Source of the DNA: Pseudomonas karstica
Lineage (GTDB): Bacteria > Pseudomonadota > Gammaproteobacteria > Pseudomonadales > Pseudomonadaceae
Direction: 5' to 3'
Assembly (NCBI RefSeq): GCF_009707515.1
Contig: NZ_WLYI01000026.1
Span: forward strand, 1 to 64,000
Length of the DNA stretch: 64,000 nt
The notes beneath the pieces are model-generated. The model worked only from the letters and a program-made list of their open reading frames with translations, did not search any database and had not been told where the DNA came from. Shown one piece after another: positions 28,040 to 31,293 of this stretch; position 1 is the stretch's first letter; each line of letters starts with the position of its first letter. Position numbers and translations under genes: made by a program.

Positions 28040-28327
28040 TTAGTCGATGACTTTCGGAACCAGGTACAGGCCGTTTTCGACCGCTGGTGCGATGGACTGA
28101 TAGGCCTCGCGATTATTGCGTTCGGTCACGACGTCTGCGCGCAGGCGCTGACTGGCTTCCAGTGGGTGAGCCAGGGGCTCGATGCCGTCTGTATTCACAG
28201 CCTGCATTTGGTCGACCAGCCCGAGAATGCTGTTCAGGGCTGCTGTGGTCTGTGGAAGATCGGCTTCATTGAGGCCCAGGCAGGCCAAATGAGCGATTTT
28301 TTCCACGTCGGAGCGTTCAAGTGCCAT
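28040..28327 (-). CDS. gatC: Aspartyl/glutamyl-tRNA amidotransferase subunit C
   Basis: 95 residues, standard length. It is a small wrap-around subunit that stabilises GatA-GatB ([34 protein letters not shown]). It is first in the minus-strand gatCAB operon and divergent from mreB across 200 nt. Confidence 0.96.
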
Positions 28328-29565
<1,238 letters not shown>

Positions 29566-29594
29566 GATTCCCTGGGTCATCCATGTTTCGCTCA

Positions 29595-29620
29595 CAGGCA
29601 GCACTTTGCAGTGCTGCCTG
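29595..29620 (+). terminator. Hairpin between mreB and mreC
   Basis: Perfect 11-bp stem CAGGCAGCACT / AGTGCTGCCTG with a TTGC loop, 30 nt past the mreB stop. The following TTGGCGTTTATCTTC is only weakly T-rich, so it looks like a partial terminator or mRNA-stabilising end. Confidence 0.6.
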
Positions 29621-29704
29621 TTGGCGTTTATCTTCTTCAATCTGCATCCGGGCCGGTTTGATGCCGTATGAATAACCTGAACATTTGCCTGGGAGGAGCG
29701 GCCT

Positions 29705-30805
29705 ATTAAACCGCTTTTCACCAAGGGTCCTTCGCTGGGCGTGCGCCTGTTGGTGCTGGTCGTGCTATCGGTCGCGCTGATGGTGGTCGATGCCCGCTTC
29801 ACACTGCTCAAGCCAGTGCGTAGCCAGATGTCGCTGGTATTGATGCAGTCCTACTGGATCACTGACCTGCCGCAGCGGCTATGGCAGGGCGTGTCCAGCC
29901 AGTTTGGCAGCCGTACCGAACTGGCGGCCGAAAACGAAAAACTCAAGACCGAAAACCTGCTGCTGCAGGGGCGCATGCAAAAGCTCGCGGCCCTGACCGA
30001 GCAGAACGTCCGGCTGCGCGAGTTGCTCAATTCTTCCGCGTTGGTCAACGAGAAGGTCGAAGTGGCCGAGTTGATCGGCATGGACCCTAATCCCTTCACT
30101 CACCGTATCATCATCAATAAGGGTGAGCGCGACGGCGTGGTCCTCGGCCAGCCAGTGCTGGATGCCCGCGGACTGATGGGCCAGGTGGTGGAGTTGATGC
30201 CGTATACCTCTCGCGTCCTGTTACTCACTGACACGACCCACAGCATCCCGGTGCAGGTCAACCGCAACGGCCTGCGAGCGATTGCCAGCGGTACTGGCAA
30301 CCCCGAGAGCCTGGAATTGCGGCATGTTGCCGATACTGCCGACATCAAGGTGGGCGACCTCTTGGTCAGCTCTGGCCTGGGACAGCGTTTCCCTGCGGGT
30401 TATCCGGTGGCGACGGTCAAGGAAGTGATTCACGATTCTGGCCAGCCGTTTGCTATTGTGCGTGCCGTTCCAACTGCCGCGCTGAATCGCAGCCGCTACC
30501 TGCTGCTGGTATTCAGCGACAATCGCACTCCGCAAGAGCGCGCCAACGATGCAGCCCTGGCTCAAGAAGAGGAAGACAGGCAAAACGGCATCACCCCCAA
30601 TATACCGGTGACGGTGCCGCCACCCGTGCCGCCCGCGGCACCGGCAGTCGTTCCGGTTCCGCCTGCGACGCCGGTGGCTACGCCAGTCAGTGCACGTCCC
30701 GCCAATCCCGCGACCGCACCGGCCGCTGCCAAACCACCTGCTGCAGCGCCCGCCATCGTCCAACCGGCGGTGGCTCCGGCAGCTACTCGTCAGAGGGAGG
30801 AATAA
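29705..30805 (+). CDS. mreC: Rod shape-determining protein MreC, probable ATT start
   Basis: 366 residues if initiation is at ATT 29705, giving MKPLFTKGPSLGVRLLVLV with Met inserted at ATT. GGGAGGAG (29691-29698) is ideally spaced at 6 nt. No in-frame ATG, GTG or TTG exists between the upstream stop (29678) and GTG 29741, which would cut into the membrane anchor. An N-terminal span, a coiled coil (about 70-110) and a periplasmic beta-domain follow, then a Pro/Ala-rich tail of about 65 residues. MreC links MreB to PBP2/RodA. It ends overlapping mreD. Confidence 0.93.
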   Translation: MKPLFTKGPSLGVRLLVLVVLSVALMVVDARFTLLKPVRSQMSLVLMQSYWITDLPQRLWQGVSSQFGSRTELAAENEKLKTENLLLQGRMQKLAALTEQNVRLRELLNSSALVNEKVEVAELIGMDPNPFTHRIIINKGERDGVVLGQPVLDARGLMGQVVELMPYTSRVLLLTDTTHSIPVQVNRNGLRAIASGTGNPESLELRHVADTADIKVGDLLVSSGLGQRFPAGYPVATVKEVIHDSGQPFAIVRAVPTAALNRSRYLLLVFSDNRTPQERANDAALAQEEEDRQNGITPNIPVTVPPPVPPAAPAVVPVPPATPVATPVSARPANPATAPAAAKPPAAAPAIVQPAVAPAATRQREE

Positions 30806-31293
30806 TGGCCGGTACTCATTCGCGCAATGGCTGGATCGTCTGGCTGACTTTCGCCATCGGCTTGTTGCTCAGTGTCTCGCCGCTGCCGCAATTCATGGAA
30901 ATCCTGCGCCCGTTGTGGCTGGCGCTGTTGCTGGCGTTCTGGTCCCTGGCGCTGCCCCATAAGGTCGGCATGGTCACGGCCATGTGCCTGGGGTTGGCAG
31001 AGGATGTGCTCTACGGCACTTTGCTTGGCCAGAACGCGTTGATCCTGACCCTGATTACCTTTCTGGTACTGTCGTTGCAACAGCGCCTGCGGATGTTCCC
31101 GATGTGGCAACAGTGCCTGGTGATTCTGGTGATCTTTGGCCTCGCCCAGTTGGTACAGCTATGGCTCAGCGCCTTGACCGGCAATCGCCAACCAACACTG
31201 GCACTGGTGCTGCCCGCGTTGGTCAGTGCACTGCTGTGGCCCTGGGTCAGTTTTGGCCTGCGTGGATTGCGTACTCGCTATAAAATCAATTGA
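30805..31293 (+). CDS. mreD: Rod shape-determining protein MreD
   Basis: 162 residues, with five or six membrane spans and hardly any soluble part. Its ATG overlaps the mreC stop (TAATG), and it completes the MreBCD elongasome set. Confidence 0.93.
   Translation: MAGTHSRNGWIVWLTFAIGLLLSVSPLPQFMEILRPLWLALLLAFWSLALPHKVGMVTAMCLGLAEDVLYGTLLGQNALILTLITFLVLSLQQRLRMFPMWQQCLVILVIFGLAQLVQLWLSALTGNRQPTLALVLPALVSALLWPWVSFGLRGLRTRYKIN

Follow-up and report, generated by a model that had tools for sequence, protein, structure and literature searches.

The question raised by this locus is at which codon translation of mreC begins. The window, by which we mean the whole analysed stretch of 64,000 nt from Pseudomonas karstica (all coordinates below are given on it, + strand), has in the mreC frame a first canonical start codon, GTG, that lies downstream of an ATT preceded by a strong Shine-Dalgarno (SD) sequence, and it was proposed in an earlier note that the non-canonical ATT is the start. 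The features on which the argument depends are as follows.

28528..29565, + strand: mreB, with ATG start; PF06723 neighbour of mreC and control for the start-codon survey
29678..29680, + strand: in-frame TGA, which bars a canonical start upstream
29691..29698, + strand: SD sequence GGGAGGAG, 6 nt 5' of the ATT, duplex energy -10.2 kcal/mol, spacing conserved
29705..29707, + strand: ATT start codon of mreC, aligned with Met1 of E. coli; ATH in 150/150 Pseudomonas loci read
29705..30805, + strand: mreC coding sequence counted from the ATT, with 366 codons before the stop and flanked by mreB and mreD; PF04085, TIGR00219
29741..29743, + strand: GTG, first canonical codon in the mreC frame, rejected as start
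30805..31293, + strand: mreD, with ATG start; PF04093 neighbour of mreC

The codons between TGA 29678 and ATT 29705 are ACA TTT GCC TGG GAG GAG CGG CCT, with no ATG, GTG or TTG among them, so that codon reading bears out the earlier statement that the frame is open back to the stop at 29678 and that GTG 29741 is the next canonical codon; the coordinates of the SD sequence 6 nt before the ATT were confirmed as well. The SD duplex energy is -10.2 kcal/mol at ATT 29705 versus -4.2 at GTG 29741. The identity of the gene is given by Pfam PF04085 (E 6e-42) and by NCBIfam TIGR00219 (above cut-off), and the NCBIfam mreC equivalog profile is entered at position 3 with 232.8 bits when the window MreC is taken from the codon after the ATT, and at position 11 with 223.8 bits when it is taken from GTG 29741. 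It is noted that the SD duplex energies of the operon genes diverge, being -3.8, -10.2 and -11.4 kcal/mol for mreB, mreC and mreD, respectively. A consensus scan of 29300-29900 gave no promoter or terminator, and a search of 28300-30000 gave no Rfam match to a known RNA element up to E = 1.

We then consider the conservation of the start within the genus. The codon aligned with the window ATT was read in 150 Pseudomonas loci and is ATT in 132, ATC in 15 and ATA in 3, with ATG, GTG or TTG in none. The loci consist of 80 named Pseudomonas genomes, with ATT in 80/80, and of 70 further genus genomes, with ATT in 52, ATC in 15 and ATA in 3, the 70 being the 30 best-scoring (the window's own included) and the 40 weakest of 149 matched genus genomes; locus L111, which duplicates L146, was left out. 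Starts were called at the aligned codon, else at the one before, else at the one after, with SD strength not used and CTG not counted. A sequencing error at the ATT is ruled out, as ATT is present in 132 genus loci, which are near relatives with some overlap of the named and unnamed sets likely. By pattern search, the motif around the start is matched in 396/398 genus genomes, and among the pattern matches listed the third base of the start is, by eye, T, C or A, with no G. Codon -1 varies over the same 150 loci, taking ten forms that specify six residues; since ATH is kept in 150/150 while its neighbour takes ten forms, the conservation at the start is beyond chance. Moreover, when the spacing is measured from the last base of the best purine motif to the start, 145/150 genus loci have a gap of 6 or 8 nt. 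Thus, of the expectation that the ATT and its SD sequence would be conserved in Pseudomonas, the part on the site and the SD spacing holds, whereas the conserved class is ATH and not ATT alone. In the mreB control, ATG is present in 110/110 genus loci where the mreB start was read. Among the isoleucine codons of five neighbouring genes, ATC is the commonest (74), followed by ATT (35) and ATA (3/112).

Outside the genus, the aligned position reads ATG AAG CCA ATT TTT in E. coli (L208), where it is the MreC start, and ATG AAA CCC ATC TTT in Aeromonas caviae. As both have ATG there, the Pseudomonas ATT aligns with Met1, and together with ATH in 150/150 Pseudomonas loci this upholds the non-canonical start proposed for the window. 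The KP(L/I)F..GPS N-terminus can be made out in many families across the class, standing directly after Met1 in E. coli; it was said before that lack of conservation of the KPLFTKGPSLG region would speak against the ATT start, and the region is conserved, so the proposal stands on this count also.

In 186 loci outside the genus, with the aligned codon and its immediate neighbours on both sides considered, ATH is found in 132 and ATG, GTG or TTG in 27; of the remaining 27, the N-terminus could not be aligned in 16, and in 11 no start-like codon is present at this place. The three loci of the same family all have ATC. The 65 order loci (68 loci outside the genus were taken from 142 order matches) have ATH in 53, ATG in 4 and TTG in 2, with 5 unalignable and 1 without a start-like codon, and the 118 class loci, which are the best-scoring of 170 matched with the weakest left out, have ATH in 76, ATG in 17, GTG in 3 and TTG in 1, with 11 unalignable and 10 without a start-like codon. 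Counted by family, with family codes typed by hand from the order and class match lists, ATH is present in 105/149 sampled, only NTG in 23, and 21 are uncallable. In the phylum-level search most matches outside the class begin after the MreC N-terminus. The gap between SD sequence and ATH outside the genus is most commonly 6-8 nt (91/132), with no motif in 15. The mreB control is less clean here, with ATG in 24/29 order and 40/55 class loci, and the non-ATG mreB codons (e.g. GTT, TTC) suggest a misaligned variable N-terminus. An exception among the mreC loci is Legionella adelaidensis (L396, 471-503), where mreC is annotated from a GTG overlapping the mreB end and the aligned codon is CAT. The remark that AUU would be unusual for a cell-shape gene is therefore right, but the start is not peculiar to this genome, ATH being the commonest state among the families sampled.

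It should be noted that an internal isoleucine codon would also show a third base of only T, C or A, and that such a reading is excluded only by the missing upstream start and the alignment with Met1. An internal codon would require a start further upstream, and in 253/282 ATH loci there is no ATG, GTG or TTG between the in-frame stop and the ATH; in 28/282 a canonical codon lies further upstream in frame, and one locus ran to the contig end. As the start encodes Met whatever its third base is, the protein cannot account for why only T, C and A occur there in Pseudomonas. The third base shifts among these three and never to G in the 150 loci, although AUG would give the same Met, implying that what is conserved is the poor start-codon pairing itself. 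From the reading of the sequences, mreC almost certainly starts at AUU (or AUC/AUA) in Pseudomonas and in most related families examined, and for the window we hold with very high confidence that initiator tRNA-Met reads AUU 29705 as the first codon, so that the protein would begin MKPLFTKGPSLGVRLLVLVV....

A start in this position also bears on the annotation of P. aeruginosa. The 1131-base record CP123788.1 (L395), labelled as a P. aeruginosa plasmid, contains TAG GAG CGG ATC ATC AAA CCG, with two tandem ATC codons (within 216-269) before the AAA CCG of P. aeruginosa mreC; its annotation places the mreC start at GTG 267, which lies 16 codons past the second ATC. Counting from GTG 267 puts Glu at residue 188 and Arg at 190, as they are numbered in a published structure of P. 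aeruginosa MreC; this suggests that the structure numbering fits the 16-codon truncation, with residue numbers 16 too low when set against the full-length protein. Fourteen residues is short for a membrane span, and the longer P. aeruginosa form restores a charged head and a full hydrophobic stretch. It is suggested that MreC is mis-annotated wherever only ATG, GTG and TTG are allowed, as in this one deposited P. aeruginosa sequence checked.

Upstream of and around the AUU, two further features are present in the window.

29668..29709, + strand: putative leader ORF, ATG..TAA (MNNLNICLGGAAY), in frame -1 to mreC, its stop overlapping the start as AT[TAA]
29693..29719, + strand: predicted hairpin, GAGGAGCGG (29693-29701) with CCGCTTTTC (29711-29719), pairing the SD sequence and placing the AUU in a 9-nt loop

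A leader ORF with its TAA overlapping the AUU is found in 131/132 ATT-type Pseudomonas loci and in 0/18 ATC/ATA loci, the latter having no overlapping stop because ATCAA and ATAAA cannot form one. Nearly every ATT-type locus has such a leader ATG without an intervening stop. The ORF has 13 codons in 107 loci and from 7 to 47 in the rest, with length counted from the most upstream ATG; only frame -1 was searched, so the in-frame leader lengths alone are no test. The leader peptide sequence varies widely, and the leader ATG of the window has a modest SD sequence (-4.6). In 123/132 ATT-type loci the SD sequence of mreC pairs with mreC codons 3-5 (CCG CTT TTC in the window), leaving the AUU in the loop, the window hairpin being predicted at -15.2 kcal/mol; by the same rule the hairpin is found in 0/18 ATC/ATA Pseudomonas loci and 1/160 loci outside the genus, and some ATT-type loci (e.g. 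L172) have the leader ORF without it. Codon 4 is CTT in 110/150 genus loci, although four neighbouring genes use CTT for only 10/163 of their leucine codons, a hint that pairing with the SD sequence is selected for. In a fixed register no two-sided compensatory pair changes were found in the hairpin, and it thus remains a prediction. Note also that a strong 12-bp hairpin, ACAGGCAGCACT/AGTGCTGCCTGT, is present at 29594-29621 between mreB and mreC, and that L173 and L177 are predicted to have, upstream of mreC, hairpins of related sequence with both arms changed; a possible role of the hairpin at 29594-29621 is to stabilise the mreB portion of the transcript or to set it apart.

Two readings would dispense with initiation at the AUU altogether. 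One is that translation starts at GTG 29741 or a later canonical codon, with KPLFTKGPSLG left untranslated. GTG 29741 is indeed the first canonical codon, the deposited P. aeruginosa annotation also picks an internal GTG, and a start there keeps most of the hydrophobic stretch in the window (best 19-residue mean 2.26 vs 2.60). However, codon 13, which is this GTG, is GTG in only 120/150 genus loci, the first canonical codon falling at codon 11, 13, 15, 16, 17, 19 or 24 depending on the locus; its SD sequence is weak (-4.2); KP(L/I)F..GPS is conserved as protein and adjoins Met1 in E. coli; and in P. aeruginosa the membrane segment is poor when read from the annotated internal start (1.46 vs 2.34). 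GTG 29741 is rejected as the mreC start on conservation, SD strength and protein alignment, and a start there or further downstream appears to us extremely improbable. The other reading is that the leader ORF undergoes +1 frameshifting at its stop (UAU UAA to AUU), as in prfB, giving a fusion protein to which the AUU is internal. The in-frame leader ATG in 131/132 ATT-type loci and the SD-like stretch just 5' of the stop could be expected for such an event, but the leader overlap is missing in the 18 ATC/ATA Pseudomonas loci, where the mreC frame is open, and ATH extends far outside the genus. It is also reasoned that AUU would offer no pairing to a tRNA slipping from UAU or CAU, and the leader peptides vary widely. 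Frameshifting from the leader ORF is rejected because of the ATC/ATA loci without overlap, and we regard a fusion product as scarcely credible.

With initiation at the AUU retained, we propose a model of its function. AUU, AUC and AUA are the codon class that IF3 discriminates against, with infC as the model gene. In the model, the poor start-codon pairing would be offset by a strong and well-spaced SD sequence, so that initiation would proceed at a low rate. The stronger SD sequences at ATH loci fit the tuning of such a rate: among non-genus loci the median SD duplex energy is -7.4 kcal/mol for the 132 ATH loci vs -2.9 for the 27 NTG loci (Mann-Whitney p 6e-8), and an SD sequence of -6 kcal/mol or stronger is present in 105/132 ATH vs 8/27 NTG loci, 27/132 ATH loci being weaker than -6. 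On an MreB tree made by a quick method from 85 loci with a called start, the start codon changes at least 35 times, with 6 changes between ATH and NTG; as these switches are few, the association between SD strength and ATH is not significant once kinship is counted (one supported pair, six in all). In E. coli, the balance of MreC and MreD is reported to set the activity of PBP2 (PMC7793260), and since this balance governs PBP2 activity the dose of MreC matters. As a whole, that mreC is translated from an AUU which, as a weak AUH start, limits the MreC dose is the best overall explanation, and we hold it with good confidence. The AUU start probably keeps the production of the wall-growth regulator MreC low, and that synthesis would be held low relative to MreB and MreD in particular is the role towards which we lean. 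Given the discrimination by IF3, MreC output should fall under IF3 excess, an expectation we put forward tentatively and with some doubt. With such a start it becomes testable whether the dose of MreC, with its bearing on PBP2 activity, is tied to IF3 and growth state.

Could the AUH start be a relic without regulatory meaning, its weakness simply compensated by SD strength? ATH with a strong SD sequence and ATG with a weak one do resemble two routes to a similar rate, and weak starts with strong SD sequences are reported for GUG and UUG by Belinky et al. (PMC5622118). Against this, ATH becomes ATG by one base with the protein kept, yet this is seen in 0/150 Pseudomonas loci while T, C and A interchange, and the same authors report that substitutions go more often toward an AUG start than away from it (PMC5622118). 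We consider a relic rather unlikely. A different reading accepts a function for the AUU and supposes that, in ATT-type Pseudomonas, MreC is made from it only by reinitiation after the leader ORF, with independent initiation negligible. That the leader stop overlaps the AUU by one base in 131/132 loci and that the SD sequence lies in a predicted hairpin in 123/132 ATT-type loci would accord with this. But the overlap and the hairpin are missing in the 18 ATC/ATA loci, and the hairpin is present in 1/160 loci outside the genus, yet AUH persists in both groups; moreover, the leader ATG has a modest SD sequence (-4.6 in the window), and some ATT-type loci, such as L172, have the leader ORF and no hairpin. 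Exclusive reinitiation is thus unlikely in our estimation, if a little less so than a relic.

Returning to direct initiation at a weak AUU, the leader ORF and hairpin may add a second layer to it in ATT-type Pseudomonas. The SD sequence would be folded into the hairpin, and translation of the leader ORF would unfold it and deliver the ribosome to the AUU. This second layer of hairpin and handover is modelled from predicted structure, and we offer it as a possibility that we doubt more than we credit. Wider still is the picture in which, across most gammaproteobacterial families, an IF3-discriminated AUH start on MreC, an activator of the elongation machinery, would couple wall elongation to the condition of the translation apparatus, with ATT-type Pseudomonas having a two-step gate where translation of the leader ORF melts the hairpin and the ribosome passes to the AUU in the loop. 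Taken in full, this picture is speculative and not likely to hold in every part.

Finally, we compare mreC with known systems. To our knowledge, very few of the bacterial genes described start with AUU, AUC or AUA, and a cell-shape gene with an ATH start in 105/149 families would be, as far as we know, the broadest case outside infC. A search within the open-licence PMC literature found no paper on an AUU/ATT, non-canonical or near-cognate start of mreC. The infC gene, which encodes IF3 and is autoregulated, resembles mreC in having an ATH-type start with a strong SD sequence; ATH was found in 26 of the 30 best-scoring order loci of infC and one of the 30 gave no candidate, the start being assigned there by best SD sequence and thus less strictly than for mreC. 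The infC of the window's own genome (L290) has an ATT start, with ATT AAG CGT GAA after GGAG. Unlike infC, mreC acts in cell shape and offers no logic for autogenous control. In E. coli, the AUU start of pcnB is said, by the title of a 2002 report of Binns and Masters, to limit synthesis, and for mreC an ATH start is present in 105 of the 149 families sampled. On the evolution of start codons, PMC5622118, which treats mainly GUG and UUG, counts 1 switch from AUG to AUU among 61,358 ancestral AUG codons and reports that changes of the start codon were not significantly associated with changes of the SD sequence; mreC shares the pattern of a weak start with a strong SD sequence with the association of start codon and SD described there. 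More recently, the non-canonical starts of Staphylococcus aureus cvfC1 (AUU) and ccpN (AUA) were found, with extended SD motifs, and that report states that their expression is below that of the AUG version, that ccpN expression is medium-dependent and that cvfC1 is conserved among Staphylococci (PMC13009471). Unlike cvfC1, the ATH start of mreC spans many proteobacterial families, and Pseudomonas adds to it a leader ORF and a predicted hairpin. Very probably, mreC joins infC, pcnB, cvfC1 and ccpN as an ATH-start gene of unusual breadth, having in Pseudomonas what may be a new arrangement.
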